A stretch of DNA of 64,000 bases, from NCBI RefSeq assembly GCF_021026315.1, contig NZ_JAJNCX010000005.1, forward strand, positions 186,001 through 250,000. Direction: 5' to 3'. Made by a program: the position numbers and the translations under genes. Within the stretch, counting starts at the first letter, position 1; every line of letters starts with the position of its first letter. The notes below the pieces were generated by a model. It searched no databases and was not told the DNA's origin. It saw only the letters and a program-made list of their open reading frames with translations. This document shows, one piece after another, positions 11,783-34,228 of this stretch. The stretch comes from Rhizobium sp. C4 (GTDB lineage: Bacteria > Pseudomonadota > Alphaproteobacteria > Rhizobiales > Rhizobiaceae).

Positions 11783-11858
11783 CCTTCGGATGACTTCCCG
11801 GCGCCCCGCTTGCATGCTAGCACTCTGTTCAAACATGAACTGAGTTGGAGGAATACCG

Positions 11859-12632
11859 ATGAGTGACACTGTTCTTCTGGAACGCAAGGGCCGTGTGGCG
11901 CTTCTGACGCTGAACCGTCCGCAGGCGCTGAACGCACTGAATGCGGAGCTTTTGACAACGCTCTGCGCGCATCTCGACGCGTTGAACGACGACGAAAGTG
12001 TGGGCTGCGTTGTCATCACCGGCTCGGAAAAGGCGTTCGCGGCGGGTGCCGATATCAAGGAAATGTCCGGCAAGACCTATATCGATATGAAGAATGCCGA
12101 CTATTTCGGTCGCCGCTTCAGCGCTCTTACCGCGACGAAGCTGCCGATGATTGCCGCCGTCTCGGGCTTTGCGCTCGGTGGTGGCTGCGAACTCGCCATG
12201 ATCTGCGATTTCATCATCGCGTCCGAGAGCGCGAAATTCGGCCAGCCGGAAATCAAGCTCGGCGTCATTCCGGGTATGGGCGGCACGCAGCGGCTGGCGC
12301 GTGCTGTCGGCAAGGCGAAGGCCATGGACCTGGTGTTGACCGGCCGCATGATGGATGCGCAGGAGGCCGAACGCTCCGGGCTTGTCGCGCGCATTGTGCC
12401 GGGAGAGGTGCTGCTCGAAACCGCGCTGGCGGCGGCAGAAGCCATTGCCTCCTATTCTCGGCCTACCGTGGTCACGGCGAAGGAGGCGGTCAACCGCGCC
12501 TTCGAGACGACCCTGACCGAAGGACTGCACTACGAGCAGCGTGTCTTCTATCCGCTCTTTGCGACGGAAGACCAGAAGGAAGGCATGGCCGCCTTCACCG
12601 AGAAGCGGCCGCCGAGTTTCAAGCATCGCTAA
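11859..12632 (+). CDS. Enoyl-CoA hydratase/isomerase family (crotonase)
   Basis: 257 residues. The crotonase oxyanion-hole block AGADIKEM, the first catalytic glutamate in GGGCELAM and the second in [19 protein letters not shown] are all present, so a true hydratase is plausible. It starts 76 bp after the SDR with a TTGGAGGA ribosome site. It would hydrate a 2-enoyl-CoA made from the imported compound. No acyl-CoA ligase is present in the cluster, so the CoA ester must come from elsewhere or the reaction may differ. Confidence 0.9.
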
Positions 12633-19369: not shown

Positions 19370-19836
19370 AATGCGTTTTGGGATACGATCTCTTCGAATC
19401 CGGCCGTTCAATGATGCATCGGACGATGGTGTGCATTCTCCATGGCAGCGAGTGCCGGGCTTCCATCCGGAAATATGGCCATTATCGTCTTCGTTGCATT
19501 TGAAAATGGAATCTGCCCCGCACCATATTCAAATCTCATAAGGTATGTTATGGAACAATCAGATCAGGCGCTGCGAATGTCTGCCTGACTAAGTATACAC
19601 TCGATCGCGTCGCTTTGTCGCCGACGGGCTGGACGCGGGACAAGAATCGTGGCCTATCTGATAGTTGTGCCTTTTTTGGCGCTGTCAGGATCAAGGTGCA
19701 TTATACGGATGCGATGGAGTCGCGTAAAATCTGGGAACGACGCGGTGGCGGCTTTTGACCGAGCCGTACTTGTGCGTTCAGATTTCATGGCGCTCCATTC
19801 CTCAGGCCGCAATGTGCTTTATTCACGAGGTGCGCA
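19370..19836. other. 467-bp spacer before repB, no repA
   Basis: The position where repA would be expected contains no ParA motif in any frame that I could read, only short unsupported frames. The sequence is less GC-rich than its surroundings. Confidence 0.6.
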
Positions 19837-20805
19837 ATGAGCCGTCGAAAACTCGCGGGCTCCGCGTTCAGCCTTGTTCCGGCACCAGACTCGGCCAAGC
19901 AGCAAAGCTCGAAGCCGAAGAAGCCCGAGTTGGCGGCGTCCCCTTCCCCCAGCGTTTCACACATCGACGAGCTTCTCCAGCTTGATACGGCGCTCATCGA
20001 GCCGTCGCCGTTTGCCGACCGGCTGACGGATGACGATCACGAGCAGTTTGAGGCGTTTGTGAAGAGCATCGCAGAGCACGGTCAGCAGGTTCCGATCCGT
20101 GTTCGACCTCACCCGGATCAGCCAGACCGATATCAGGTTGTCTATGGCCATCGAAGGCTCGCGGCTGCGCAAAAGCTGAAAATTCCTGTAAATGCTCATG
20201 TCCTCGAGATCGGTGATCGCGAACTGGCCGTCGCACAGGGTATAGAAAACAGCGCCCGGCAGGATCTCTCGTGGATCGAGCGAGCGCTCTTCGCTCGGCG
20301 CATGGATGATGCCAAATTTCGCCCTCGCGATATCTATACGGCTCTTTCGATTGATGATGCCGAACTCGCCCGCATGCGCGGTGTCTGCCGGCATGTCCCG
20401 ATCGATATCATCGAAGCGATCGGGCGGGCGCCGAAGATCGGCCGACCGCGCTGGGTGGCGCTGGCGAAATCCTTTGCAAAAAATTCAAATGCGGTCCAAA
20501 ACATCCGCGACATGCTGCAGTCCGAACGGATTCGCAAGATGGGTTCAGACGCCCGCTTTTCTTGGGTTCACGAACTCATTGCTGAATCCCGTGCCCTGGG
20601 AACCGGTAACTCGCCGCTGCGCGAGGCTGACGGATTTGGGCTCGGAGAGATCAAGTATACGAGTAAAGAGTTGCGTATCGTTGCCGCCAATGAGCGTGGC
20701 AGAGCCTTTGCCGATTTCGTCCGGACAGAGTTGCCTCGCCTGCTCGACGAGTTCAGCGCGCTCGATATCGTAACGCCGAAGAACCTGTCACCTGACAGTC
20801 AATAG
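19837..20805 (+). CDS. repB: Plasmid partition protein RepB (ParB family), copy 1
   Basis: 322 residues. ParB/Spo0J N-terminal domain: IEPSPFADRLTDDDHEQFEAFVKSIAEHGQQVPIRVRPHP, then YQVVYGHRRLAAAQKL and AVAQGIENSARQDLSWIERALFARRM, followed by a helix-turn-helix region and RepB C-terminus. RepB binds parS centromeres and works with the ATPase RepA in segregation and autorepression. Here repA is absent upstream; repC follows after the antisense-RNA spacer. The protein is full length with no visible damage. The N-terminal 45 residues are basic and Pro/Ser-rich, as in RepB. Confidence 0.88.
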   Translation: MSRRKLAGSAFSLVPAPDSAKQQSSKPKKPELAASPSPSVSHIDELLQLDTALIEPSPFADRLTDDDHEQFEAFVKSIAEHGQQVPIRVRPHPDQPDRYQVVYGHRRLAAAQKLKIPVNAHVLEIGDRELAVAQGIENSARQDLSWIERALFARRMDDAKFRPRDIYTALSIDDAELARMRGVCRHVPIDIIEAIGRAPKIGRPRWVALAKSFAKNSNAVQNIRDMLQSERIRKMGSDARFSWVHELIAESRALGTGNSPLREADGFGLGEIKYTSKELRIVAANERGRAFADFVRTELPRLLDEFSALDIVTPKNLSPDSQ

Positions 20806-20866
20806 GATAAACGAACGCCCGGTTTCCGGGTCGAAGTGGACAATACCGAAAGGAATTCAATCCGGT

Positions 20867-20960
20867 AAAAGAAAAGCTCCCAGAACGTCGCCGTCGCGGA
20901 AGCCTCTCTCTAAGTGTCGCAACTTGAGAATCGCATTTCCCCGAATCACAGTCAAGAGTT
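20867..20960 (-). ncRNA. Antisense counter-transcribed RNA (incA/ctRNA) of the repB-repC spacer
   Basis: The 208-bp spacer between repB and repC holds the conserved block of repABC plasmids (CTCTCTAAGTGTCGCAACTT). Read on the minus strand, it ends in a terminator stem GCTTCC / GGGAGC (complement of 20898-20903 and 20876-20881) followed by TTTTCTTTT. In known repABC plasmids this RNA pairs with the repC leader and lowers RepC synthesis. Downstream on the plus strand, CGCCA-TTCA-TGGCG (20966-20979) may be the leader hairpin. The 5' end is approximate. Confidence 0.75.
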
Positions 20961-21013
20961 TTTGGCGCCATTCATGGCGGGTGGGTTCTTTTGCCTTTTA
21001 GAAAGGTAGAAAG

Positions 21014-22330
21014 ATGTACACGGGGAATGTGACGACGCCCTTTGGGCGGCGGCCGATGACCTATGGCATGCTCGCAGATCAGCTGGCGGCCCAGGCAATC
21101 GACGAAAATGCGTGTGTTGACAAATGGAAGCTCTATCGCTGGCTTTGCGAGGCCCGTCCGAGGTTGAATATCTCGGACCGGGCGCTTTCGTTGCTCAACG
21201 CATTGCTCAGCTTTTATCCGAAATCAGAGTTGCGAGGCGGTGACAGCCTCATCGTCTTTCCCTCCAATGCACAGCTCTCTTTGCGGGCTCATGGCATGGC
21301 CGAGGCGACGATCCGCCGTCACATCGCCGCGCTCGTCGAGGTTGGTTTGCTGATCCGCCGAGACAGCGCCAATGGGAAGCGCTTCGCACGCCGTGACAGC
21401 GAGGGCGATATCGGCCAGGCATTTGGCTTTTCGCTTGCCCCCCTTCTCCAGCGTGCTGCAGAATTCGAAGCGCTGGCCGCTGCCGTGGTTGCGGAAAGGC
21501 TTCAATATCAGGCGCTGAAGGAGCGGTTGACGATCTGCAGGCGCGACATTGTCAAATTGCTTCAGGCTGCGATTGATGAGGATGGAGGCGATGAAGACGA
21601 GAACATTGCCCAGATGCGCGATCTCTATCGTGATGTGATGTCGAGCCTTCCTCGTCATCCTGAGGCAGCAGAACTCGACGCGATCCTGATCGTGCTCGAC
21701 GCCCTTCGCGAAAACCTGGCCAAGTTCATGACGGAGCGTCAGAATTCTCCAAATTATAGCGGCAATCACGATCATTCTGAGCGGCACAAACAGAATTCAA
21801 ATACACAACCTCAATATGAACTTGAACCTAGCTTCGAAAAGAAGCAGGAGCGAAATCCGGTTGCGGCAAATTCGCCGAAGGTCCAATTGGATGAACCGAT
21901 GGACGGACAGCCAGGTACAATGCGGGCAGCCATGAGACAGCCTGTCAGCTACCCGGATAGTGGGCCATCCGCTGAGGCCATGATGAAGCCCTTCCCGCTC
22001 GCGATGGTCTTGTCGGCCTGCCCGGAGATTTGCGACTATGGTCCGGGCGGCGCTATTTCGAGCTGGCGTGAATTCCTCGGTGCGGCGGTTGTCGTGAGGT
22101 CGATGCTGGGCGTTTCTCCGAGCGCCTTTGAAGAGGCATGCGCCGTGATGGGTCCTGAAAATGCGGCGACGGCCATTGCCTGCATCCTGGAACGGGCAGG
22201 CCACATCAATTCGGCGGGCGGCTATCTGCGAGATCTGACACGTCGAGCCGAGCGTGGTGAATTCTCACTCGGGCCGATGCTGATGGCGCAGCTGCGGGCA
22301 AATGGCGAAATCGGGGTGAAGCGCGCATGA
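21014..22330 (+). CDS. repC: Replication initiator RepC
   Basis: 438 residues, slightly longer than usual (about 400-430). Starts MYTGNVTTPFGRRPMTYGML and has the RepC blocks DKWKLYRWLCEARPRLNISDRALSLLNALLSFYP, VFPSNAQLSLRAHGMAEATIRRHIAALVEVGLLIRRDS.NGKRFARR and LTICRRDIVKLL; the C-terminal domain includes ISSWREFLGAAVVVRSMLG and AGHINSAGGYLRDLTRRAERGEFS. RepC is the initiator of repABC replicons and acts in cis on an origin inside its gene. It is the only repC in the window. Confidence 0.92.
   Translation: MYTGNVTTPFGRRPMTYGMLADQLAAQAIDENACVDKWKLYRWLCEARPRLNISDRALSLLNALLSFYPKSELRGGDSLIVFPSNAQLSLRAHGMAEATIRRHIAALVEVGLLIRRDSANGKRFARRDSEGDIGQAFGFSLAPLLQRAAEFEALAAAVVAERLQYQALKERLTICRRDIVKLLQAAIDEDGGDEDENIAQMRDLYRDVMSSLPRHPEAAELDAILIVLDALRENLAKFMTERQNSPNYSGNHDHSERHKQNSNTQPQYELEPSFEKKQERNPVAANSPKVQLDEPMDGQPGTMRAAMRQPVSYPDSGPSAEAMMKPFPLAMVLSACPEICDYGPGGAISSWREFLGAAVVVRSMLGVSPSAFEEACAVMGPENAATAIACILERAGHINSAGGYLRDLTRRAERGEFSLGPMLMAQLRANGEIGVKRA
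21740..21850. other. Putative origin of replication (AT-rich segment inside repC)
   Basis: The middle of repC contains an AT-rich stretch (around AATTCTCCAAATTATAG and CAGAATTCAAATACACAACC) encoding a low-complexity Asn/Gln/Ser linker. In studied repABC plasmids the origin lies in such an AT-rich part of repC. Function here is inferred from that precedent. Confidence 0.45.
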
Positions 22331-22358
22331 AAAACGCCGCGATGATCCATCGCGGCGT
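22330..22358 (-). terminator. Terminator of the fucose operon
   Basis: Stem ACGCCGCGAT / ATCGCGGCGT with a 5-nt loop. On the minus strand it is followed by TTTTT, so it ends the operon whose last gene stops at 22399. It abuts the repC stop codon. Confidence 0.8.
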
Positions 22359-22398
22359 CGGCTGTTTCGATGCGGCTCTGAAAGGAGACCGGATCCGG

Positions 22399-23250
22399 TC
22401 AGCCAATGACCCGTTGCGTCTGAACACCGAGGCGCTCGATGCCCAGCGACATCACCTCGCCCCCCTTCAGGTATTTCGGCGGCTTCTGGCCCATGCCGAC
22501 ACCCGGGGGCGTGCCTGTGGAAATGACATCACCCGGCTGCAGGCTCATGAACCGGCTGAGATAGGAGATGAGGAACGGAACCTTGTAGACCATGGTCTTC
22601 GTCGATCCGTTCTGGTAGCGATGCCCATCGACATCGAGCCACATCTTGAGGTCATCGAAATCGCCGACTTCATCAGGCGTAACCAGCCAGGGACCAAGTG
22701 GGCCGAACGTGTCGCAGCCCTTGCCCTTGTCCCAGGTCCCTGCCCGTTCCAGCTGATACTCGCGCTCGGACACATCGTTGATGACGCAGAAGCCCGCGAC
22801 GTGCGACATGGCATCCGCTTCGTCGATGTAGCTTCCGCCCTTCCCGATCACGACACCGAGTTCGACTTCCCAGTCGGTCTTGACGGATCCGCGCGGGATT
22901 TTCACGTCGTCATCGGGGCCGACAATCGCCGAGGTCCATTTGTTGAAGACGACGGGCTCCGGCGGAACGGTTGCACCTGTCTCGGCCGCGTGGTCTGCAT
23001 AGTTGAGACCGATGCAGATGAATTTGCCGACCTGTCCGACACAAGGCCCGATCCGGACATCCTTCTGAGGCGCGCCGGCAACGACAGGCAAGGCGTTTAT
23101 GTCCAGCGCCATGAGGCGCTCCATGGTTTCCGGCAGGAGCGAAGAACCGGCCAGATCGGGTATGACAGCTGACAGGTCGCGAATTTGTCCGCGGTCATCC
23201 AAGAGACCAGGTTTTTCCTGTCCGGCGGGACCGTAGCGCAGCAATTTCAT
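22399..23250 (-). CDS. Fumarylacetoacetate hydrolase-family enzyme, probable 2,4-diketo-3-deoxy-L-fuconate hydrolase
   Basis: 283 residues. FAH-family motifs: GKFICIGLNYADHAAETG, PVVFNKWTSAIVGP, metal ligands in TDWEVELGVVIGKGG, GFCVINDVSEREYQ, and the C-terminal LQPGDVISTGTPPGVGMGQKPPKYLKGGE. In the non-phosphorylative L-fucose pathway this family splits 2,4-diketo-3-deoxy-L-fuconate into pyruvate and L-lactate. It is the last gene of an operon with sugar importer, SDR and dehydratase. Substrate assignment is by context; ureidoglycolate or other diketo acids are alternatives. Confidence 0.82.
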   Translation of the reverse strand: MKLLRYGPAGQEKPGLLDDRGQIRDLSAVIPDLAGSSLLPETMERLMALDINALPVVAGAPQKDVRIGPCVGQVGKFICIGLNYADHAAETGATVPPEPVVFNKWTSAIVGPDDDVKIPRGSVKTDWEVELGVVIGKGGSYIDEADAMSHVAGFCVINDVSEREYQLERAGTWDKGKGCDTFGPLGPWLVTPDEVGDFDDLKMWLDVDGHRYQNGSTKTMVYKVPFLISYLSRFMSLQPGDVISTGTPPGVGMGQKPPKYLKGGEVMSLGIERLGVQTQRVIG

Positions 23251-23278
23251 GGGGGTCTTTCTCCTGTTTAACGCAATA

Positions 23279-23303
23279 GGCCCGGCGCAGCTAGCACCGG
23301 GCC
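23279..23303 (-). terminator. Hairpin after the sugar-binding-protein gene
   Basis: Ten-base arms GGCCCGGCGC / GCACCGGGCC (one wobble pair) with a 5-nt loop, in the 75-bp gap between the binding protein and the FAH gene. It lacks a T-tract; probably a partial terminator or mRNA stabiliser. Confidence 0.5.
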
Positions 23304-23325
23304 ATCTTAGGATTGGCGGGGCCGA

Positions 23326-24273
23326 TCAATCGTAGAGGACCGCCGCGATCTTGGGATCGGTGATGTTGCTCTTATCGTACCAATAGAAGCCGGTGTCGAT
23401 ATGCTTCTGAACCGGCTGGCCCTTCACGGCAGCAAGAGCAGCCTTGACGGTTTCGTAGCCGATGCCGACCGGGTTCTGCGTGATGGCGCCAGACATGATG
23501 CCATCCATGATCGCCTGCTTCTGAGCCTTGCCAGAGTCATAGCCGATGATGACGATCTTCGACTTCTTGGATTCCTTGACGCCGTTGACAACGCCGATTG
23601 CCGAGCCTTCGTTTGCACCGAAGAAGCCCTTGATGTCTGGATGAGCCGTGATGATCGACTTGGTGATTTCCGTCGATTGAAGCTGGTCGCCGGCACCATA
23701 CTGGATGTCGACGATCTGGATCTTCGGATACTTCGCCTTGATCTGGTTGACGAAGCCATCGCGACGGTCGATGCCGGTGCGCGATGTCTGGTCGTGAACG
23801 ACGAGGGCGACCTTTCCTTCATTGCCGATCAGGGCAGCCATCTTGTCAGCTGCCAGGGCTGCGGCGGCTACGTTGTCCGTCGAGCAGGTGGTGACCGGAA
23901 TATCGCTGTCGACGCCGGAGTCGAAGGCGATCACCGGGATCTTCTCGGACTGGGCTTTCTTCAGCAGCGGAATGGCCGCCTTGCTGTCGAGTGCGGCAAA
24001 GCCGATGGCAGATGGATGCTTGGCGAGTGCTGCACTCAGCATGTCGATCTGCTTGTCGACCTGTGCCTCGGTGTCCGGCCCCTCGAAGGTCACCTGGATA
24101 TCGAATTCCTTTGCCGCCTTGTCGGCGCCAGCCTTCACGGCTTGCCAGAACTGGTGCTGGAAGCCCTTGGAAATCAGCGGAATGTAGATCTTATCTGCGG
24201 CTTTGGCGACACCGGTCGCTGCAACCACGGCCGTGGCGCTGACTGCGCCCAGGAATGTACGTCTTGTGAACAT
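23326..24273 (-). CDS. Sugar ABC transporter periplasmic binding protein, RbsB type (probable L-fucose)
   Basis: 315 residues with an N-terminal signal (MFTRRTFLGAVSATAVVAATGVAKAA; RR-T-F-L suggests Tat). The mature part is of the ribose-binding class: YIPLISKGFQHQFWQAVKAGADKAAKEF, ITFEGPDTEAQVDKQIDM, VIAFDSGVDSDIPVTTCSTDN, SRTGIDRRDGFVNQIKAKYP, GFFGANEGSAIGVVNGV. It captures a monosaccharide for the RbsC/RbsA proteins encoded upstream. L-fucose is inferred from the surrounding FucU, dehydrogenase and dehydratase genes. Confidence 0.87.
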   Translation of the reverse strand: MFTRRTFLGAVSATAVVAATGVAKAADKIYIPLISKGFQHQFWQAVKAGADKAAKEFDIQVTFEGPDTEAQVDKQIDMLSAALAKHPSAIGFAALDSKAAIPLLKKAQSEKIPVIAFDSGVDSDIPVTTCSTDNVAAAALAADKMAALIGNEGKVALVVHDQTSRTGIDRRDGFVNQIKAKYPKIQIVDIQYGAGDQLQSTEITKSIITAHPDIKGFFGANEGSAIGVVNGVKESKKSKIVIIGYDSGKAQKQAIMDGIMSGAITQNPVGIGYETVKAALAAVKGQPVQKHIDTGFYWYDKSNITDPKIAAVLYD

Positions 24274-24360
24274 GATCTCCTCCTCAGGTTAGTTCACTAT
24301 AATTAGTCTTTCAGTTCCCCCGGGGTTCCTCCACCCTCGCGGTTCTTTATCTCGGACGGC

Positions 24361-25368
24361 CTAGGCCTTCCGCTTTCGCATCATGTCCGCGTAGACGGCG
24401 ATGATGATGATTGAGCCAGTGACGACTGTCTGCCATTCCTGTGGCATGGACAGAATTCGCAATCCGTTGAGCAGAACGGACATGATGAGCGCGCCGATGA
24501 CTGTTCCGAGAATGGTGCCGCGACCGCCGGTCAGTGAGGTCCCCCCGATGACCACTGCTGCAATCGCGTCGAGCTCATAGCCTTGGCCGAGCGCCGGTTG
24601 TGCGGAATTGAGGCGGGACGCGATGACCAGTCCGGCAATGCCACAGATCCCGCCGGACAGAGAATAGACCGCCATTTTCCAGTTATCGACACTGACGCCT
24701 GAGAGTCGTGCGGCTTCCTCATTCGACCCCAAGGCAAAGCAATAGCGGCCCAGGACAGTGCGACCCAGGATATAAGATGCAAGTCCTGCAACGAGAAAGA
24801 GCACCAGAACACCGTTGGGCACGGGTACGCCAGGAATGACATCGCCCACGATCGAGCCAGTCGAGATGACCGGGAAGGATGGGGTGTCGTTGAAATAGAT
24901 CGGCTTGGTGCCGGAAATGACCAGCGACAGGCCCTTCAGGATCAGCATCATGCCGAGCGTTGCGATAAACGGCGGGATCTTCATCTTGGCGATGATCGCG
25001 CCAGATGTCAGCCCGACGGCCGATCCGGTCAGGATGGCTGCAGCAATGCCAATTGGCAGCGGCAATCCCCAGTAGGTGAGGACAACACCGGCGATAACGG
25101 CGGTGAACGTCATCAATGTGCCAACCGAAAGGTCAATCCCGCCGGTAATGATGACAAGCGTTGCGGCGACGGCGAGAATGCCGTTCACGCTGGTTGCTTG
25201 CAGAATGGCCAGGATGTTTGACGTTTGCATGAAGTTCGGCGAGGCCAGGCTGAAGCCGATCAACAGGACGATCAGTGTTCCGAAAGCCAAAAGCTTCTGC
25301 TGGGCGCCAGAAAACCGGCCTTTGGTGGTCGTGGCGGCCATAGGGGCCGAGATATCGGTGTTGGTCAC
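24361..25368 (-). CDS. Sugar ABC transporter permease, RbsC type
   Basis: 335 residues from a GTG at 25368, chosen because it overlaps the ATPase stop (GTGA) and GAGGAGGGTAGG lies just upstream; the frame is open further upstream inside the ATPase gene. About eight hydrophobic segments; family blocks [67 protein letters not shown] and [25 protein letters not shown]. Forms the inner-membrane channel, probably as a homodimer. Confidence 0.88.
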
Positions 25369-26906
25369 CCTACCCTCCTCTGCGTGTCCGTATCGGTCTC
25401 TATGACCATCGATTCTCGCTGCGTGGCGAGATGCATGATGTCTTCCTGTTTGGTCGCTGCTCCGCCGGGCAGGATCCCGGTGAGGCGGCCTTCGCACATG
25501 ACGGCGATACGGTGCGACAGGCGCATGACCTCCGGCAGCTCCGAGCTGATGACGATGATCGCCTTCCCGCTCTTTGAGAGGTCCATCAGCAGCTGATAGA
25601 TTTCCGATTTCGCCCCGACATCGATGCCGCGGGTGGGTTCGTCGAAGATCAGGATGTCGCAGTTTCGCAGCAGCCACTTGGCGATGACGACCTTCTGCTG
25701 GTTTCCGCCTGAGAGCAGCTTCACCTCCTGGGTGTCTGAGGGGGTGCGGATACCGAGCTTCTGGATGTATTCCTGCGCCACTTTTTTCATCGCATTTTCA
25801 TCAAGAAGGCCCGAAAACTTCGTGAAAGACTTCAATGACGCAAGAGCAATGTTGTTGCGGACATCCATGGGCAGCGCGAGGCCGAAATGCTTACGGTCCT
25901 CCGACAGGTAGCCGATCCCTGCCTTGACTGCGTCATGCGGCGTGCGGATCGTCAGGCTCTTACCGTGCACGAAGATCTCGCCTGCTTCGAGCGGGTCTGC
26001 GCCGAAGATGGCGCGCGCAACTTCGGTCCGGCCCGCACCCATGAGGCCGGCGAAGCCGAGAATTTCGCCCCGAGAGAGCGTGAAGCTTACATCCTTGATT
26101 TCACGTCCGCGCCTAAGTCCGCGTACTTCCAAGGCAATCGGGTTCTTGGAGGTGTCAGGGACCTGCAGCGGCTCGTCTTTCACTTCTCGCCCGACCATCT
26201 TGGTGATGATCGTGCTGATGGGTGTGTTGGCCGCAGGTACGGTGTCGACATATTCGCCATCGCGCATGATCGTCACCCGGTCGGCGATGCGCTTCAGCTC
26301 ATCCATCTTGTGGCTGATATAGACGATGCCGACGCCTTGCGCCTTCAGGTCGCGGATGATCGAAAACAGGTCGGCAATTTCCGCGTCGTTCAGTGCCGCC
26401 GTCGGTTCGTCCATGATGAGGACACGGAACTTGTAGGATAGAGCCTTGGCGATCTCGACCATCTGCTGCTTGGCAATGGTCAGGGAACCGACGGTCACCT
26501 GCGGATCCATCTTGAGCCGCATTGCCTGGAAGATCTCGGCTGCCTGTTGATTGAGAAGGCGTTCATCGAGGCGGCCGAACGCCTTGCGGGGTTCGCGGCC
26601 TATGAAGATGTTTTGTGCTGCGGTGAGATCATTCATCAGGCTCAGTTCCTGGTGAATGATGCCGATCCCGGCGGTCTGGGCGCTGCGCGGATCCGTCAGC
26701 TCAAGCTGCTCGCCTTCCATGAAGATTTCACCTGCGTCGGGCTGGTAGATGCCCGCAAGAATCTTCATGAGTGTGGACTTGCCTGCCCCGTTCTCGCCCA
26801 TGAGGGCATGAACTTCTCCCTCACGTAAATCGAAGCGTGCGGACTTCAGGGCATGGACACCCGGAAATCGCTTTTCGATCCCCCTCATCTCGATGATTGT
26901 CTTCAT
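25365..26906 (-). CDS. Sugar ABC transporter ATP-binding protein, RbsA/CUT2 type
   Basis: 513 residues with the duplicated ATPase arrangement of RbsA. The first domain has Walker A GENGAGKS and Walker [12 protein letters not shown]. The second has a degenerate Walker A (GLMGAGRT), signature [15 protein letters not shown] and [19 protein letters not shown]. The degenerate second P-loop is normal for CUT2 ATPases. It energises the RbsB/RbsC-type importer and overlaps the permease start by 4 bp. Confidence 0.9.
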
Positions 26907-26943
26907 TCGGCAGCCCTCCCAAGCCGCACAGACGCTTGCGAGG

Positions 26944-27693
26944 TTAGATGGTGACGCCTCCGTCGACCAACATGGCCTGCCCGCTCACAAAGCGACTCTC
27001 CGGCGACAAGAGATAGATGACCATTGGCGTGATGTCGTCGACACTCGCCAGGCGCCCCATGGGCTGGCGTGCGATAAAGTCCTTCTCGGCCTGGATCGGA
27101 TCGGCTGAAGCTGCAATGCGGCCGCGCAGCGAAGGCGTATCAACCGTTCCTGGGCAGAGTGCATTGCAACGGATGCCCTGCTTGACGAAATCTGCTGCGA
27201 TGGACTTGGTCAGGCCAATGACCGCCGCCTTGGTCGCTCCATAGGACGCCCTGTTCGGGAAACCCTTGATGGAGGATGCCATCGAGGCCATGTTCAAGAC
27301 CGAGGCCGTGCCGGTTTCGGCGGCACGGTCGATCATTCCTGGCAGGAATGCGCGACACATGCGCATCATCGCCGTGACATTGAGTTCGAAGGCGAAGGCC
27401 CAATCCGCATCTGCGATGTCGATCACCGTCCCGTTGTGAACGACACCTGCGCAATTAAACAGACCATCGAGTTTGGGCAGTTTCGCTGCCAAATCGTCGA
27501 TTTCAGCTTGCTTCGTGACATCAAGGCGCGATGTGCTAATGCTTGAATTCTCAGCAGAAAGTGACTCCAGGGCTTCAGTATTGATATCCGTCGCGTAGAC
27601 GGTCGCGCCCTCTGCTGCTGCGGCGAGCGCGGAAGCGCGTCCGATCCCCTGCCCTGCCGCCGTCACCAATATATTCAAGCCTTTGAGGCGCAT
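26944..27693 (-). CDS. SDR, probable 2-keto-3-deoxy-L-fuconate dehydrogenase
   Basis: 249 residues from the ATG after AAAGG ([29 protein letters not shown]..). NAD-binding [18 protein letters not shown], catalytic Ser in MASMASS, catalytic YGATK and the C-terminal [12 protein letters not shown]. The opening segment resembles 2-keto-3-deoxy-L-fuconate 4-dehydrogenases, which feed the FAH-family hydrolase. Its place between dehydratase and hydrolase genes fits this step. An alternative is another hydroxy-acid SDR. Confidence 0.8.
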
Positions 27694-27762
27694 AGCTAAA
27701 CCTTTACACGAGCTATTCTTGAAGCAGTGCATTAAATTAAAGTAATTTGTCACGCGAGAGTG

Positions 27763-29286
27763 TTACATCACGGCACCAATTTGCCATGGAACGAACTCTG
27801 CACCTCCGAAGCCTAGTTCTTCGCTCTTAGTCCGCTCGCCGGACGCGACACGGATAATGAGCTCAAAAAGCTCCTGCCCCTTCTCCTCAATGCTGACCCC
27901 ATCGGTGACTATATCCCCACAGTTGAGATCCATATCCTCTGCCAGTTTCGCGTACATCTCCGAGTTCGTCGCGAGCTTGATGCAGGGGGTCGGTTTGTAG
28001 CCCGACACAGATCCGCGGCCTGTGGTGAAGACGATGAGGTTGGCGCCGGAGGCGACCTGGCCGGTCACGGAGCACGGGTCGAAACCCGGACTATCCATGA
28101 AGACAAAACCCTTTGCGTCGATTTTCTCACCGAATTTGTAAACACCGCTCAGCGGGGCCGTGCCGCCCTTGGCGACGGCGCCGAGGGACTTTTCGAGGAT
28201 GGTCGTCAAGCCGCCACGCTTGTTTCCAGGAGACGGATTGTTGTCCATTTCACCGCCGTTGCGGGCCGTGTAATCCTCCCACCAGCGAATGCGCTCGATG
28301 AGCTTTTCGCCGATTTCGATCGTCTCCGCACGGCGCGTCAGCAGGTGTTCTGCACCGTAGATTTCGGAAGTCTCCGACAGGATTGTGGTGCCGCCATGGC
28401 GGACCAGAAGGTCGGATGCATAGCCCAATGCGGGGTTTGCTGTAATGCCGGAATATCCATCAGAACCGCCACATTGCAGCCCAATTGTGATCTCAGAAAC
28501 GGAAATTGGCTCCCGTACGGCCTTGTTGGCGTATTCTGCGACGCCTCTAAGGGCCTCCAGGCCGCGTTCGATCGTGCGGCGCGTTCCACCCTCCTGCTGG
28601 ATCGTCATGTACTGCAGAGCGCCATCTGCGCGGATTTTACGGCCGCCTACGAGCTCGGGGATCTGCATGACTTCGCAGCCGAGGCCGAGCAGCAGGATGC
28701 CTCCGAAATTGGGGTTCTGCGCATAGCCTGACAGGGTCCGGAACAGCGTGGCATAGCCTTCGCCCTCCCCTGACATGCCGCAGCCGGTCGAGTGAACGAT
28801 CGGAACGATACCATCAATGTTCGCGTATTGGTTGAGAAAACCCGCCTTCTCCGCTGCTTCCGCAATGAATTTTGCGACCGAGCCGGAACAGTTCACAGTG
28901 GTCAGGATGCCGATGTAATTACGGGTGCCGGCCTTGCCATCGGCGCGACGGTAGCCCTGGAACGTACGTTGTTCGTTGGCAGGGGCAAGACGCTCACTTT
29001 GTGTCGCGTGACCATAATCCTGATGGTGTTCGCCCATGCCGAGATTGTGAACGTGCACATGGTCGCCGGCGTGGATATCTGCCTTTGCCTGCCCGATGAT
29101 CTGTCCGTATCGATAAACGTTTTCGCCCGCGGAGATATCCCGGGTCGCTATTTTATGGCCGCGCGGAACTGCAAGCTTGAGGGGCATGGAAATCTCGTCG
29201 AGGCGTTCGCCCGCGGCCAGATCGCGCAATGCGATGGCCACGTTGTCATTCGAATGCAGGCGAATCAATCTAGCGCCTCGGTCCAT
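27763..29286 (-). CDS. UxaA-family (altronate/galactarate dehydratase type) sugar-acid dehydratase
   Basis: 507 residues. The N-terminal SAF domain (IRLHSNDNVAIALRDLAAGERL.., GENVYRYGQIIGQAKADIHAGDHVHVHNL) is followed by the UxaA catalytic domain (GKAGTRNYIGILTTVNCSGSVAKFIAE, STGCGMSGEGEGYATLFRTLSGYAQNPNFGG, GLQCGGSDGYSGITANPALGYASDL). Members dehydrate sugar acids such as D-altronate. In this operon L-fuconate to 2-keto-3-deoxy-L-fuconate is the obvious reaction. First gene of the minus-strand operon. Confidence 0.82.
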   Translation of the reverse strand: MDRGARLIRLHSNDNVAIALRDLAAGERLDEISMPLKLAVPRGHKIATRDISAGENVYRYGQIIGQAKADIHAGDHVHVHNLGMGEHHQDYGHATQSERLAPANEQRTFQGYRRADGKAGTRNYIGILTTVNCSGSVAKFIAEAAEKAGFLNQYANIDGIVPIVHSTGCGMSGEGEGYATLFRTLSGYAQNPNFGGILLLGLGCEVMQIPELVGGRKIRADGALQYMTIQQEGGTRRTIERGLEALRGVAEYANKAVREPISVSEITIGLQCGGSDGYSGITANPALGYASDLLVRHGGTTILSETSEIYGAEHLLTRRAETIEIGEKLIERIRWWEDYTARNGGEMDNNPSPGNKRGGLTTILEKSLGAVAKGGTAPLSGVYKFGEKIDAKGFVFMDSPGFDPCSVTGQVASGANLIVFTTGRGSVSGYKPTPCIKLATNSEMYAKLAEDMDLNCGDIVTDGVSIEEKGQELFELIIRVASGERTKSEELGFGGAEFVPWQIGAVM

Positions 29287-29341
29287 TCCTGTACATCCTC
29301 CCCCTTGAATTCTTGGTTTTCTTGGCCTCTGGCGTCTACTG

Positions 29342-29401
29342 ACATCAGATGTTAAATAGAGTTCTATCTTGACTAGTACACAGTGTCAACTAACATGTTA
29401 G
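29342..29401. promoter_or_regulatory. Divergent promoter region with GntR-like palindromes
   Basis: Between the dehydratase and the GntR gene lie CTAACATGTTAG (29390-29401, perfect 12-bp palindrome) and ACAT-CAG-ATGT (29342-29352). Both are plausible operators for the GntR protein controlling the divergent fucose operons. Spacing of the half sites differs, so they may not be the same site type. Confidence 0.45.
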
Positions 29402-29427
29402 ACATTGATCGAGGAGATTCGACGGGG

Positions 29428-30144
29428 ATGACGCAGGCTTTTAACGCACGAGCATTGACCGCAATTGATGATTTACCGGGGTCGCTGTCGCAGCGTGTCT
29501 ATCAATCGCTTCAGGAAGCGATCATGTCGCTGACGTTCCCGCCGGGCGCTTTGATCCGCAAAGGCGCCATCTGCGACGAGCTCGGCGTGTCGCGGTCGCC
29601 CGTCTCCGAAGCGATCACACGGTTGGCATCCGAGGGCCTTGTTGATGTGATCCCGCAAAGCGGCACGCGTGTGGCGCGGTTCTCCATCGAGGAAATTCGC
29701 GAGGCTGCTTTCATGCGCGAGGCGCTCGAAGTGGCGGCTGTCGAAAAGGTGGCGCGCGACCATACGTCCGAACAATATGCCAAACTGGCGCGCAATGTTC
29801 GGTTGCAGGCCATGCTGGTCGAAGATCACGACACGGCCGGCTTCTATCAGGCGGACGAAGAGTTTCACGCCTTGCTGATGGAGTTTACCGGCTTCCCCGG
29901 TGTGGCTGCCACGGTTGCCACTATTGCGCTGAAACTGAAGCGGCCGCGCATGCTTCTTCTGCCGGAGCCTGGTCGCAACGATGACGCGGTGCGCGAGCAT
30001 CTGGCCATCGTCGAAGCCATTCGTGATCGGAACCCGGACGAAGCCCGCTCGGCCATGCGCTATCACCTCGCCCAGCTGGTCAGCCGCTTTGATCCGCTGG
30101 AGAAGGAACATCCGGAGTTCTTCCGCTCCAGGCAATCCCACTAA
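29428..30144 (+). CDS. GntR-family (FCD) regulator of the fucose island
   Basis: 238 residues from ATG 29428, preferred because GAGGAG precedes it; starts at 29383 (GTG) and 29395 lie in or before the palindrome. Winged helix LSQRVYQSLQEAIMSLTFPPGALIRKGAICDELGVSRSPVSEAITRLASEGLVDVIPQSGTRV. The FCD domain carries metal-type ligands (EFHALLMEFTG, HLAIVEAIRDRNPDEARSAMRYHL). It probably represses both divergent units until a pathway intermediate binds. Followed directly by the aldose dehydrogenase and FucU genes. Confidence 0.85.
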   Translation: MTQAFNARALTAIDDLPGSLSQRVYQSLQEAIMSLTFPPGALIRKGAICDELGVSRSPVSEAITRLASEGLVDVIPQSGTRVARFSIEEIREAAFMREALEVAAVEKVARDHTSEQYAKLARNVRLQAMLVEDHDTAGFYQADEEFHALLMEFTGFPGVAATVATIALKLKRPRMLLLPEPGRNDDAVREHLAIVEAIRDRNPDEARSAMRYHLAQLVSRFDPLEKEHPEFFRSRQSH

Positions 30145-30181
30145 GCGCCCTCCCCTCTTTATATATAGAGAGAGCCTCTTC

Positions 30182-31222
30182 ATGAAACTGACAGACCTCA
30201 TCCCGTTGAACGGGCGAACGAAGCGCCCTGTTCATCTCACCCGCATGGGCTTTGGCGGTGCGCCACTCGGCAACCTTTATCGCAAGGTGAGCGATGAGGA
30301 TGCGCAGGATGCTCTCCTCTCCGCTTTTGATGTGGGCATCCGTTATTTCGACACGGCGCCGCAATATGGGCTTGGCCGCTCCGAGGAGCGTTTCGGTCGC
30401 GCCATGCAGATGTTCGGTGCCGGCAACATTGTTCTTTCAACAAAGGTCGGTCGTCTCCTTCTCGATTGCGAGCCGGACGAAGTGACACCCGAGAGCTTTG
30501 TCGATGTCCCGCAGAAGCGGATCGTCTTCGACTATACCTATGACGGAGTGATGCGCAGCTATGAAGCCAGCAAGTCGCGGCTGAATATCGATCACGCAGA
30601 TATCCTCCTCGTCCACGACGTCTGCGCCTTTTCGCAAGGGTCGCAGGAGGCGAGTGACGTGAAGGTGCGGGAGCTTTTCGACGGTGGCGGATACCGGGCA
30701 CTGGTCGAGTTGCGGGACGCCGGTGACATTTCGGCGATTGGTGCAGGGGTCAACGAGTGGCAGGTCTGCGAGACGCTTCTGGGTCTTGGCGACTTCGACT
30801 GCTTTCTGCTCGCCGGCCGATATACACTTCTTGAGCAGGAAGCGCTGGAAACATTTCTGCCGCTCTGCGAACGCCGCGATGTCGGGATCATTCTGGGCGG
30901 CCCGTATAATTCCGGAATTCTGGCCACAGGTGCGGTTGAGGGGGCACGGTACAATTATGTGCCCGCCCCTGCCCCGATCCTGGAGCGGGTTCGAAAGATC
31001 GAATCAGTCTGTCAGGCGCATGGCACGCCATTGATCGCCGCCGCCCTGCAGTTCGTCTTCGGACATCCGTGCGTGAAGACGGTGATTCCCGGTGCCGTTA
31101 GTCGCGGAGAGCTTCTGGCCAATGCGAGGCTCTTGGAAGTGGATATCCCTGCAGGCCTCTGGACGGACTTGAAGCGTGAGGGTCTTATCCGGGCTGACGC
31201 ACCCGTGCCAAAGGATAACTGA
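30182..31222 (+). CDS. Aldo/keto reductase-family D-threo-aldose 1-dehydrogenase (L-fucose dehydrogenase)
   Basis: 346 residues. AKR barrel pattern: MGFGGAPLGNLYRKVSDEDAQDALLSAFDVGIRYFDTAPQYGLGRSEERFGRAM, catalytic Tyr in APQYGLG, Lys in STKVGRLL, VHDVCAFSQGS, GAGVNEW and the C-terminal VIPGAVSRGEL. This AKR subgroup oxidises L-fucose or D-arabinose to the 1,5-lactone with NAD(P). It is the first step of the non-phosphorylative pathway and lies one base before fucU. Confidence 0.85.
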   Translation: MKLTDLIPLNGRTKRPVHLTRMGFGGAPLGNLYRKVSDEDAQDALLSAFDVGIRYFDTAPQYGLGRSEERFGRAMQMFGAGNIVLSTKVGRLLLDCEPDEVTPESFVDVPQKRIVFDYTYDGVMRSYEASKSRLNIDHADILLVHDVCAFSQGSQEASDVKVRELFDGGGYRALVELRDAGDISAIGAGVNEWQVCETLLGLGDFDCFLLAGRYTLLEQEALETFLPLCERRDVGIILGGPYNSGILATGAVEGARYNYVPAPAPILERVRKIESVCQAHGTPLIAAALQFVFGHPCVKTVIPGAVSRGELLANARLLEVDIPAGLWTDLKREGLIRADAPVPKDN

Positions 31223-31223
31223 C

Positions 31224-31652
31224 ATGCTCCGCAACATCCCACCGATTCTCTCCCCCGACCTGCTTCACGCGCTGGCCGCCATGGGCCATGGCGACGACAT
31301 CGTGATTGCGGACGCCAATTTTCCGGCTGAAAGTTCCGGTGTGCCCTGCATCCGGCTCGATGGCATTTCAGCCACGGATGCGCTGGAAGCGATTCTCTCC
31401 TTGCTTCCGCTCGACAGCTTTGTTCCCGATCCGGCTCTGGTCATGCAGGTTGTCGGTGATCCGACGGCTGTTCCGGAGGTGGTCAGCGAGTTCCAGTCGA
31501 TCATCGATCGCGTCGCTGATAATCCGGCTAACATTGGCAGCCTGGAGCGGTTTGAATTCTATGATCGGGCCAGCAATGCATTTGCCGTGGTTCAGACTGG
31601 CGAACGCAGACTCTATGGAAACATCATCCTCAAGAAGGGTGTCATCAAGTAA
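31224..31652 (+). CDS. fucU: L-fucose mutarotase FucU (RbsD/FucU family)
   Basis: 142 residues starting MLRNIPPILSPDLLHALAAMGHGDDIVIADANFPAESSG, the RbsD/FucU signature including the catalytic His in MGHGDDI. C-terminal block RFEFYDRASNAFAVVQTGERRLYGNIILKKGV is FucU-like. Interconverts alpha- and beta-anomers of L-fucose, feeding the dehydrogenase encoded 1 bp upstream. RbsD (ribose) is the alternative, but the neighbours favour fucose. Confidence 0.87.
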   Translation: MLRNIPPILSPDLLHALAAMGHGDDIVIADANFPAESSGVPCIRLDGISATDALEAILSLLPLDSFVPDPALVMQVVGDPTAVPEVVSEFQSIIDRVADNPANIGSLERFEFYDRASNAFAVVQTGERRLYGNIILKKGVIK

Positions 31653-31792
31653 AGGGTCTCTCCCGTCAGGGGAGATGTGACGGCGTCGGAAGCACGGACT
31701 TTCGATCGTAAGCCGGATAAGGTGTTGGCCCGTCGGCGGGCCTTCACCGATCATTAACGGTGTTGCCTTGCGCAATCCCGCGAATCTGCAAT

Positions 31793-31833
31793 AATAACGA
31801 TTATTCAAACCGCCTCGCCCGAAAATCGTTATT
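31793..31833. promoter_or_regulatory. Inverted repeat upstream of repA (candidate RepA/RepB operator)
   Basis: AATAACGATT at 31793-31802 and its exact reverse complement AATCGTTATT at 31824-31833, 21 bp apart, ending 15 bp before the repA start. RepA (with RepB) represses its own operon in repABC plasmids; this is the best visible candidate operator. Confidence 0.6.
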
Positions 31834-31848
31834 TGGAATTCAGACTCG

Positions 31849-33060
31849 ATGAACGCCGTTACCTCAGCAGCGACAGACCGCGCAGCCTTTCACTTTGAGG
31901 ACGAGATTCTCGAACAGGGCGACCTGATCTCGAAGAAGCTTCACCTGCTCAGCCTGCAGCGTTTTCCGCCAACGGCCCACAAGACCCTGCGGACGTTTTC
32001 GCTGGCAGAAGTTGCGCATTTCCTCGGTGTCTCCCAGAGTACGCTGAAGAAACTGCATCTGGAGGGCAAAGGCCCCCTGCCCCAGACATCGCCGTCCGGA
32101 CGCCGATCCTACTCGGCGCAGCAGATGGCGGAGCTTCGCGATTATCTCAGCCAGCATGGCCGATCGGACGTGAAGGATTATTCGCCACGCCGGCGACCCG
32201 GGGACAAGCTTCAGGTGGTCGCCGTCGTCAACTTCAAGGGTGGCTCCGCGAAGACAACGACTGCCGCGCACCTTGCGCAGCATCTCGCGCTGACTGGTCA
32301 TCGCGTGCTTGCGATCGATCTAGACCCGCAGGCCTCCCTCACCTCTCTGCACGGCTTCCAGCCCGAGCTCGATCAGACGCAATCGCTGTATGAAGCGATC
32401 CGCTATGACGAGGAGCGCAAGCCGATCAAGGACGTCATTCGGCAGACGAATTTTCCGGGCCTGGACATCGTACCTGCCAATCTCGAACTGCAGGAATTCG
32501 AGTACGACACGCCGCTCGCCATGGCGAACCGGAACTCCAACGAAGGCAAGACCTTCTTCACACGTATATCCCGCGCGCTGGCCGATGTTGACGATCAATA
32601 TGATGTTGTCGTCATCGATTGCCCGCCGCAGCTGGGTTACCTGACGATTACGGCGCTGGTGGCAGCGACGAGCGTGCTGATTACCATTCATCCGCAGATG
32701 CTTGACGTGATGTCCATGGGGCAGTTTCTGCTGATGCTGGGCGGGATTCTGAAGCCGATCCGTCAGGCCGGCGCCGAGGTGAACCTCGCATGGTATCGCT
32801 ATCTCGTGACGCGCTATGAGCCGACGGACGTGCCCCAGGCGCAGATGGTCGGGTTCATGCAGACACTGTTCAACGAGTTCATGCTGAAGAACCAGATGCT
32901 GAAGTCGACGGCGATTTCAGACGCCGGCATTACCAAGCAGACGCTTTATGAAGTTGAGCGGACGCAGATGACGCGCTCGACCTATGACCGTGCCATGGAG
33001 GCACTGGAGTCGGTGAATGCCGAAGTGACGGAGCTCATTCACGGGGCTTGGGGTCGCTGA
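31849..33060 (+). CDS. repA: Plasmid partitioning ATPase RepA (ParA family)
   Basis: 403 residues. The N-terminal helix-turn-helix (TFSLAEVAHFLGVSQSTLKKLHLEGKGPLPQ) is followed by the ParA ATPase: deviant Walker A VVNFKGGSAKTTTAAHLAQHL, ALDLDPQA-type VLAIDLDPQASLTSLHG, and VVVIDCPPQLGYLT. RepA drives plasmid segregation with RepB and autoregulates the operon. No frameshift or truncation. Only repB follows; the repC expected third is missing. Confidence 0.93.
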   Translation: MNAVTSAATDRAAFHFEDEILEQGDLISKKLHLLSLQRFPPTAHKTLRTFSLAEVAHFLGVSQSTLKKLHLEGKGPLPQTSPSGRRSYSAQQMAELRDYLSQHGRSDVKDYSPRRRPGDKLQVVAVVNFKGGSAKTTTAAHLAQHLALTGHRVLAIDLDPQASLTSLHGFQPELDQTQSLYEAIRYDEERKPIKDVIRQTNFPGLDIVPANLELQEFEYDTPLAMANRNSNEGKTFFTRISRALADVDDQYDVVVIDCPPQLGYLTITALVAATSVLITIHPQMLDVMSMGQFLLMLGGILKPIRQAGAEVNLAWYRYLVTRYEPTDVPQAQMVGFMQTLFNEFMLKNQMLKSTAISDAGITKQTLYEVERTQMTRSTYDRAMEALESVNAEVTELIHGAWGR

Positions 33061-33082
33061 AGTTGTCGGCTGACAAAAACAG

Positions 33083-33101
33083 GGAAATATTGAATATTTC
33101 C
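33083..33101. promoter_or_regulatory. Perfect 19-bp palindrome between repA and repB (candidate parS)
   Basis: GGAAATATTGAATATTTCC: 9-bp arms around a single G, in the 63-bp repA-repB gap. Several repABC plasmids carry a centromere in this gap. It does not fit the common GTT-N4-GC-N4-AAC repABC parS form, so the assignment is tentative. Confidence 0.5.
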
Positions 33102-33123
33102 AGTGATATAGGGGTGACAAACA

Positions 33124-34098
33124 ATGGCGCGTAAGAATCTCCTTGCCGGATTGGCCGATTCCGAGGAAGCAGCGCCCGCCGCGGCGGCAGCTTATCCCAT
33201 GCGGGGCGCGTCGAAGACCATGATCCGGTCTCTCGACGAGCTTGCGCGTCAGGCCGACAAGTTTCTTGAGGGTGAGGCCGTCATCGATATCGATCCGTCA
33301 GACATCGATGGGTCCTTCGTTTCGGATCGTCTGGAGGATGACGCCGAGCAGTTCGAGGCGCTGAAGGCGGCGATCGCGGAGCGTGGTCAGGACTCGCCTG
33401 TCCTGCTCCGGCCCCATCCGGATCGTGCCGGCCGATATCAGATCGTGTTCGGTCATCGTCGCGTGCGCGCTGCGCGGGAGCTGGGGCGCTCCGTTCGTGC
33501 GGTCGTCAAGGCGATCGATGATCGGTCGCATGTGATTGCCCAGGGGCAGGAAAATTCAGCCCGCGCCAATCTCAGCTTCATTGAGCGCGCGCTCTTTGCC
33601 AAGAGGCTGGAAGACCTCGGCTATGGCCGTGATGTCATCGGTTCGGCACTGGCGGCCAATGCTGCGGCTCTTTCGAAGATGGTGTCGGTGACGTCGCGGA
33701 TCAACGAAGACGTCCTTTTCGCGATTGGCCCAGCCCGCGGCGTAGGTCGCGAGCGGTGGGTCGAGCTTTCATTGTTAGCCGGCAAGGAATCGAATGCATC
33801 CCGGATCGAAGACGTTGTTTCAGATCCGTCGTTCAAGGCACAGTCGAGCGATGAGCGCTTCAACGGTCTCTATCTTGCGCTGAAGCAGGGAGGCAAGCCG
33901 GTCAAGAAAAGCAAGCCTGCGACGAAGCTCGACACGTGGCAGGCAAAGGACAAGCTGGTTACCGCTCAGTTTTCGCAAGGAGCCAATGCGTTCTCGTTGA
34001 CCCTGAAGGCGAAGGCGGCACCGGAGTTCGGCCGTTACGTTACCGAAAATCTGGACCGTCTCTATTCGGAATATCTGTCGGGAAGGCGAGGCCGGTAA
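33124..34098 (+). CDS. repB: Plasmid partition protein RepB (ParB family), copy 2
   Basis: 324 residues starting MARKNLLAGLADSEEAAP. ParB domain: DPSDIDGSFVSDRLEDDAEQFEALKAAIAERGQDSPVLLRPHPD, RYQIVFGHRRVRAARELG, VIAQGQENSARANLSFIERALFAKRLEDLGYGRDVIGSAL, then the RepB C-terminal region. Clearly homologous to the RepB at 19837 but diverged along its length, so the two are not a recent duplication. Cognate to the adjacent RepA. The gene is followed by a second antisense-RNA block but no repC. Confidence 0.9.
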   Translation: MARKNLLAGLADSEEAAPAAAAAYPMRGASKTMIRSLDELARQADKFLEGEAVIDIDPSDIDGSFVSDRLEDDAEQFEALKAAIAERGQDSPVLLRPHPDRAGRYQIVFGHRRVRAARELGRSVRAVVKAIDDRSHVIAQGQENSARANLSFIERALFAKRLEDLGYGRDVIGSALAANAAALSKMVSVTSRINEDVLFAIGPARGVGRERWVELSLLAGKESNASRIEDVVSDPSFKAQSSDERFNGLYLALKQGGKPVKKSKPATKLDTWQAKDKLVTAQFSQGANAFSLTLKAKAAPEFGRYVTENLDRLYSEYLSGRRGR

Positions 34099-34099
34099 A

Positions 34100-34190
34100 A
34101 AGAAAGGCCCCCAGACGTCGCCGTCGTGGAAGCCCCTCTCTAAGTGTCGCAGCTTATGGGTCGCACGTCCTCGATTAGGCGTCAAGAGTC
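34100..34190 (-). ncRNA. Second antisense RNA (ctRNA) block, orphaned from repC
   Basis: Right after repB copy 2 lies a sequence nearly matching the repB-repC spacer at 20867-20960 (shared CTCTCTAAGTGTCGCA, ACGTCGCCGTCG, GTCAAGAGT). Its minus-strand terminator has complementary arms TGGAAGCC (34127-34134) and GGCCCCCA (34106-34113), followed on the RNA by TTTCTTTTT. It has every visible element of a repABC counter-transcribed RNA but no repC downstream. Whether it is transcribed is unknown. Confidence 0.65.
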
Positions 34191-34228
34191 CGCATCGGTT
34201 TTCATGCCGATGCGGACTATTTTTTTTG
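34187..34228 (+). terminator. Strong terminator in the repC leader position
   Basis: Perfect 12-bp stem AGTCCGCATCGG / CCGATGCGGACT, loop of 8, then ATTTTTTTT. It starts in the conserved GTCAAGAGT block. It may be the native leader hairpin of the lost repC and now ends repAB transcription. Confidence 0.85.

Follow-up and report, generated by a model that had tools for sequence, protein, structure and literature searches.

A split repABC locus in Rhizobium sp. C4

The repABC replicons of the Rhizobiales include symbiosis plasmids, tumour plasmids and secondary chromosomes; in the canonical operon repC is under RepA control because it lies on the same mRNA. Canonical replicons of this kind have their origin of replication within repC, and their incompatibility is set by ctRNA, parS and RepC. 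The replication locus described here lies in a stretch of 64,000 nucleotides from Rhizobium sp. C4 (the window; bases 186001-250000 of C45, an unclosed contig of 332,554 bp in a 5.2-Mb genome of 50 contigs) and divides the repABC functions over two half-sets, with 9.5 kb and a sugar-catabolism island between them.

A 2009 study of 49 operons, chosen by strict selection criteria, emphasises that the repABC operon structure persists despite swaps of single genes (PMC2783167). The pTiAB2/73 cointegrate resembles the present locus in carrying a pair of repABC units of which one is damaged, but there one unit is intact and the other truncated, probably via transposable elements, in a single strain (PMC8554961). 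pMM259 of Martelella mediterranea also arose naturally by fusion and has a repABC of mosaic make-up (A2B2C1), but contains two complete modules and a solitary repC (PMC5613091). pSmeLPU88b combines a repABC with a repC unit; unlike here, the repABC has all its genes, and each cloned unit can replicate, though with lower stability in the case of the repC unit (PMC10194956). No split repABC arrangement of the present kind was recognised among the titles, abstract openings and passages of the literature searched.

In Rhizobium sp. C4, repB1, a counter-transcribed RNA (ctRNA1) and repC (19837-22330) occur without repA, and repA, repB2 and ctRNA2 (31849-34139) without repC (Pfam, NCBIfam and Rfam matches):

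19837-20805 (+): repB1, ParB-type, with no repA of its own (Pfam RepB and ParB_N; TIGR03454 from profile position 63)
20865-20909 (-): ctRNA1, antisense to the repC leader, promoter TTGACT-N17-GATTCT (Rfam RF00489, 53.7 bits)
20950-21016 (+): S-element of the repC leader (Rfam RF00490, 48.6 bits)
21014-22330 (+): repC, initiator with N- and C-terminal domains (PF03428, PF11800, NF040974)
31849-33060 (+): repA, ParA-type ATPase (TIGR03453, 613 bits)
33124-34098 (+): repB2, complete RepB (TIGR03454 positions 1-323)
34096-34139 (-): ctRNA2 gene or ctRNA-target sequence, not followed by a repC (Rfam RF00489, 52.3 bits)
34187-34228 (+): strong terminator-like hairpin (13 pairs, T-run) that closes the repA-repB2 transcript, conserved in five of five split loci

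These matches, together with tblastn, bear out a first-pass annotation of the sequence, which had described one half without repA and one without repC; after ctRNA2 the terminator-like hairpin stands where the repC leader would normally follow. All protein families of a canonical repABC locus are present, as are the ctRNA, the S-element and parS-like sites. RepA scores over the cut-off of its ParA-family model, and two RepB proteins of the ParB family do so as well, RepB2 complete and RepB1 lacking the initial 62 positions of the profile. RepC has both domains, and repC follows repB1 at the usual spacing, with the antisense ctRNA1 and the S-element between them; repA lies elsewhere. In contrast to canonical repABC, however, there is no contiguous repA-repB-repC operon but two units (19837-22330 and 31849-34228), in which repA and repC are single, RepB comes in two lineages, and both ctRNA sequences have the same specificity. 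Because the contiguous operon is a defining feature, we class the locus as a split descendant of repABC rather than as a canonical replicon of this type. Nor does it hold the two complete sets of a composite plasmid, a single repA and a single repC being present both on the unclosed C45 and on G001:C2, a contig of a relative.

We consider it probable that the locus is a working hybrid derived from two joined repABC plasmids minus repA1 and repC2, in which RepA, RepB2 and parS2 carry out partition and RepC initiates replication, while RNA pairing may couple the halves. The first-pass annotation had also raised a functional hybrid; conservation in five genomes under purifying selection supports this, the function itself being read from sequence.

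Conservation and selection

The same split is found in five of the six genomes of this Rhizobiaceae genus, Rhizobium sp. C4 included, with RepB1 and RepB2 encoded on one contig and the same strand, 11.2-13.4 kb apart. The first-pass annotation had named two findings that could overturn its view: that the arrangement is an assembly artefact, or that the replicon holds an entire repABC at another site. A misjoin between 22 and 32 kb would be favoured by the draft state of the assembly (50 contigs) and by the near-repeat nature of the two ctRNAs, but five separate genomes, one of them assembled into only 6 contigs, carry the identical order with shared island genes between the halves. Short of one common error in all five assemblies, this rules out an artefact, the chance of which is negligible. 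As to a second repABC, G001:C2 (579,762 bp) has two repB genes and a single copy each of repA and repC, every one of them inside the split locus, and these are the only rep genes found on it. Its start holds a LysR helix-turn-helix running outwards, and its end a LysR substrate domain that matches the profile from position 52 on; these two parts of a LysR-type gene fit a single gene cut where a circle was opened. G001:C2 is thus probably a circle, some LysR residues being unaccounted for at its ends.

Ratios of nonsynonymous to synonymous substitution (dN/dS) were computed by NG86 for pairs among the five genomes, leaving out one saturated RepB1 pair (nine of ten pairs used). Synonymous distances of the rep genes range from 0.70 to about 3, and those of RepB1 from 1.1 to about 3. 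The dN/dS values are 0.016-0.032 for RepA, 0.026-0.061 for RepB2, 0.05-0.11 for RepB1 and 0.087-0.146 for RepC; RepA is 95-97% identical across four relatives. The low values of RepB1 indicate that it is a kept protein. The split arrangement is old and under purifying selection.

Two ancestries

In a survey of the family with the RepB Pfam model, the matches listed came from 77 of 121 genomes with a match. In a quick RepB tree (62 of 113 collected rows, SH-aLRT support only, with a warning of meeting long branches, one being the RepB1-RepB2 side), the RepB1 proteins of the five genomes form one clade next to RepBs that include that of pRLN3, and RepB2 sits among relatives from pNGR234a, pSinB and pRetTAL182e. 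The RepA/RepB2 half and RepB1 thus fall in two separate repABC groups, the former of pNGR234a/pSinB/pRetTAL182e type and the latter of pRLN3 type. RepB1 and RepB2 are 42% identical over 219 positions; this value and the tree rule out a simple duplication of repB, as the first-pass annotation had already held. The RepC tree (53 of 115 rows, fragments and duplicates also removed; in both trees, one third of loci L052-L127 was taken) places RepC with RepC proteins encoded by other plasmids in this genus, so that RepC has no simple assignment to 'plasmid 1'. Swapping of repC among repABC replicons is known, and this clustering is consistent with it.

RepB1-type loci elsewhere keep their repA. In the GTDB genomes 80 of 135 such loci were retained for comparison, and 77 of them have repA directly upstream (L089 only partly); the three without it all belong to this genus, L049 beginning 327 bases before repB1. 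No repA1 remnant was found upstream of repB1 by tblastn with four RepA queries in the five genomes (best E 0.1; in Rhizobium sp. C4, E 2.0 or worse). The RepA type that accompanies RepB1 relatives is 69-81% identical to the RepA of G003, the sixth genome, whereas the resident RepA shares only 47% identity with this type. One element does precede repB1:

19629-19664 (+): ancestral upstream block CTGGACG...AAGAATCGTGGCCTAtCT, with a GANTC site (from alignment)

This block is kept in all five split loci, and its equivalent stands about 80-110 bases upstream of repA in seven intact RepB1-type operons, whose hosts include Bosea, Ancylobacter and Mesorhizobium (aligned before repA in L095, L083, L098, L102 and L114; matched also in L103 and L120). 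It probably belonged to the promoter region of the ancestral repABC. With the block kept before repB1 and no repA behind it, repA1 has been lost, and a portion of the sequence that preceded it seems to be left.

A close parallel is plasmid pB of Ensifer adhaerens NER9 (L159, L181), a 1.59-Mb replicon on which the same two repABC lineages occur together and the repC of the pNGR234a-type unit has been lost. It differs in that its RepB1-type repABC is complete, repA1 being kept, and in that its two units lie on opposite strands with 50 kb between them, the ctRNA of the repC-less unit being cut. pB looks like an intermediate of fusion with loss. The same stretch also occurs in two other E. adhaerens records. 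The halves of the split locus descend from two repABC lineages; the separate groups, the retained block and pB together support the earlier view that two repABC plasmids fused and that one repA and one repC were lost.

The two ctRNA units

Upstream of ctRNA2 the promoter is altered, its register being taken from the canonical TTGACT-N17-GATTCT:

34157-34185 (-): altered ctRNA2 promoter, -35 TTGACG (34180-34185) kept, -10 GACCCA (34157-34162)

From ctRNA2 to the terminator the five genomes are 97% identical over 131 columns, and the sequence past the terminator is not alignable. In its recognition part, ctRNA2 differs from ctRNA1 by one fixed difference and by two positions that vary among the ctRNA1s, and it is unlike its nearest repAB2 relatives. 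A 35-base recognition pattern (at most 3 mismatches) is present in five of 394 family genomes, in two copies each, all at the split locus. Calculated as a linear duplex, pairing of ctRNA2 with the repC leader reaches -105 to -115 kcal/mol in the five genomes, compared with -133 to -135 kcal/mol for ctRNA1 and -59 to -91 kcal/mol for ten other ctRNAs (three from the same genome, seven from relatives). In the model described in PMC6090056, pairing of ctRNA with the leader leads to formation of a terminator ahead of repC.

The loci fetched for comparison yielded 78 distinct ctRNA-like sites, one without a -35. GANTC stands at the -10, as GANTCT, in 69 of the 77 with a recognised -35, and the -10 of all five ctRNA2 units is GACCCA or CACCCA; three further sites lacked GANTC, and in two of these the -35 was probably misplaced. 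The N of GANTC varies (T, G, A, C). What is conserved in the ctRNA -10 therefore looks to be the CcrM site as such. A 2024 CcrM paper had already located GANTC in repE promoters and reports that altering the GANTC of the repE -10 on Agrobacterium chromosome 2 abolished most promoter activity (PMC11514494). Taken with the altered -10 of ctRNA2, this result suggests that ctRNA2 may be silent and its sense 3' end left as a sponge for ctRNA1. The -35 and the T-run of the ctRNA2 terminator are conserved, which would be odd for a pure sense-strand sponge.

These data also bear on the possibility that the halves are two independent modules, with repC and ctRNA1 self-replicating, RepA/RepB2 serving partition only, and the ctRNA2 stretch acting as an end of repAB transcription without effect on repC. 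The strength and conservation of the terminator fit this account, as does the altered -10, but a terminator alone leaves unexplained the 35-base stretch that matches ctRNA1 and is absent elsewhere in the 394 genomes, together with the conserved T-run and -35. We regard it as doubtful.

Two other repAB units without repC differ from this one: the ctRNA is cut in E. adhaerens pB and none was matched in L121. L121:8607-10900, from Rhizobium sp. NFR03, has repA-repB followed by a parS-like CCTGTCATCTGACAGG; neither a ctRNA pattern match nor a repC was found in this 20.8-kb locus. Both cases would suit a passive relic of a cointegrate, in which RepB1 and the ctRNA2 unit are on their way to loss and the plasmid runs on RepC and RepA/RepB2: pB has a full repABC beside a repAB with cut ctRNA and no repC, L121 a repAB without repC, and pTiAB2/73 is described with a truncated second repABC (PMC8554961). 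A relic is nonetheless unlikely, given the dN/dS of RepB1 at its synonymous distances, the identity of the ctRNA2-terminator stretch next to an unalignable flank, and the cut or missing ctRNA of the two other repC-less units.

RepB1 and the partition sites

RepB1 lacks the segment RVGAGVIGAxxRxIxxIRxERDRLKA, which is present in every RepB1-family row listed, and no upstream in-frame extension supplies it. The missing segment may have served RepA. The N-terminal tip MSRRK is conserved. RepB1 also retains GHRR and ENSAR motifs, which we take to be part of the ParB CTP site.

Predicted parS sites were called from group-specific palindromes, and a candidate operator precedes repA:

20785-20798 (no strand): parS1-like CTGTCANNTGACAG at the 3' end of repB1, a site predicted from the position of palindromes in relatives
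31794-31832 (no strand): conserved inverted repeat ATAACGATTAT...AATCGTTAT upstream of repA
33063-33076 (no strand): parS2 candidate TTGTCGGCTGACAA between repA and repB2, from its conservation

Palindromes of RepB1-type relatives lie at the 3' end of repB. The parS2 candidate occurs as one copy in the repA-repB2 gap of five of the six genus genomes, that is, in all five split loci, where it is the sole exact match to the pattern on those contigs; relatives from TAL182 and Shinella have it as well. In the reading GTTGTCGGCTGACAAA, it deviates at one position from GTTNNCNGCNGNNAAC, the consensus quoted in PMC9040568, although it is no near-perfect palindrome and fails the 14-of-16 test. The published consensus GTTN4GCN4AAC was of no use as a guide to parS: it had one chance match in the window, in the island (30412), and no near-palindromic one. 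The inverted repeat stands before repA in all five genomes and before repB1 in none, and is probably the RepA operator.

Partition by two ParB proteins, with RepA serving RepB1 at parS1 and RepB2 at parS2, could draw on the retained GHRR, ENSAR and N-terminal tip of RepB1 and on the parS1-like arms that persist at the 3' end of repB1. The missing N-terminal segment speaks against it, as does the loss of the RepA type of RepB1 relatives, to which the resident RepA is so distant, and we judge it very unlikely.

A proposed model of the split replicon

The working hybrid that we favour can be outlined as follows, with promoter and operator roles, protein activities, use of the parS sites and the RNA coupling, including its sign, predicted from the sequences above. 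Two repABC plasmids would have joined and lost repA1 and repC2, leaving a hybrid now carried by five species-level genomes of one genus. RepA, RepB2 and parS2 would constitute the working partition half, autoregulated at the repA operator. RepC would be the single initiator, its mRNA starting at the leftover repA1 promoter and staying under ctRNA1. RepB1 would persist as a DNA-binding protein of ParB type, released from service to a cognate RepA and probably acting locally, at parS1 and on repC expression. The lost cis link may have been replaced in trans by RNA: the end of the repA-repB2 transcript, with its ctRNA1 recognition site and strong terminator, may soak up ctRNA1 or, alternatively, antisense ctRNA2 may pair with the repC leader.

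The first of these couplings can be put more specifically, as a tentative proposal. The 3' end of the repAB mRNA, its antisense promoter disabled, would titrate ctRNA1; expression of the partition genes would govern initiation in trans, and RepB1 would be freed from ParA for local control. When the replicon is scarce, relief of RepA self-repression would raise the repAB mRNA, ctRNA1 would be titrated and RepC made.

Several observations weigh against the hybrid or against parts of it. The arrangement in the sixth genome is unreadable, since its two repAB units and two repC pieces (C3, C4, C5 and C6 of G003) end at contig ends that fall near ctRNA or inside repC, and the split plasmid may have spread by transfer instead of descent. 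The upstream block was unmatched, at the thresholds used, in the RepB1-type loci other than the seven. The true repC leader is as conserved as the ctRNA2 stretch (97% over 152 columns), so that high conservation is usual for such leaders, and RNAalifold found no compensatory changes or covariation in the ctRNA2 fold, where there is too little variation. The likeness of ctRNA1 and ctRNA2 may simply be inherited from the fusion. Linear duplex energies discriminate poorly: the ctRNA of another plasmid of this genome (contig C4) reaches -102 kcal/mol with the ctRNA2-side leader, near the values counted as a match, which makes pairing energy alone weak evidence. The lack of the usual -10 speaks against ctRNA2 as a trans-acting antisense RNA. 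RepB1 may still contact RepA via its conserved MSRRK tip, and parS1 is degenerate, off-palindrome at its centre and with one further mismatch in G005; a similarly off-palindrome centre is seen in the parS-like site of L121.

Other rep genes, the island and flanking genes

Searches of all contigs of the genome found five repC, six repB and five full-length repA. The first-pass annotation had recommended a search of the rest of the assembly for repA1 and repC2; the other rep-bearing contigs, C3, C4, C16 and C49, each hold one repA, one repB and one repC, and C45 has one repA, one repC and two repB. A hidden repC2 in the open reading frame (ORF) at 34144-35181 is ruled out: it has no Pfam match, and only its first 28-62 codons, in the ctRNA/terminator stretch, are alignable in four relatives, most of it not being conserved. 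On contig C3 of this genome (G000:C3), RepC C-terminal sequence occurs at 2-325 and again at 103015-103299, the latter behind the N-terminal part of repC, which suggests that the plasmid is a circle of about 103 kb and that the ends of its contig overlap.

Between the halves lies the island:

22399-31652 (no strand): probable L-fucose-type catabolic island (domain matches and comparison with relatives)

Its proteins comprise members of the RbsD/FucU and galactarate/altronate-dehydratase families, an SDR, an FAH-type hydrolase, an aldo/keto reductase, a GntR regulator and a sugar ABC transporter. The earlier label of 'fucose island' is reasonable on these families, which point to fucose as the presumed substrate. 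The island genes common to the five split loci are mostly 81-97% identical; for the aldo/keto reductase of G004 the alignment is poor and fragmentary. Two of four relatives, G004 and G001, lack the three genes of the sugar ABC transporter, the gaps corresponding to L042:7009-8778 and L043:10704-12487. The G004 gap contains no ORF of at least 100 amino acids, and the G001 gap has three overlapping or partly overlapping ORFs, the longest of which (11578-12363) has no Pfam match.

Just past the rep locus, 35518-37581 (-) encodes a 687-amino-acid protein with a formylglycine-generating-enzyme-like domain; its STAND/AAA NTPase matches are weak and below the cut-off.

Significance

RepB1 is a ParB-family protein without a ParA partner of its own and without one N-terminal segment, yet it is kept by selection. 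A natural set of split loci across most of a genus makes it possible to test directly which connections of partition with initiation have to be in cis, and whether ctRNA pairing can replace them.

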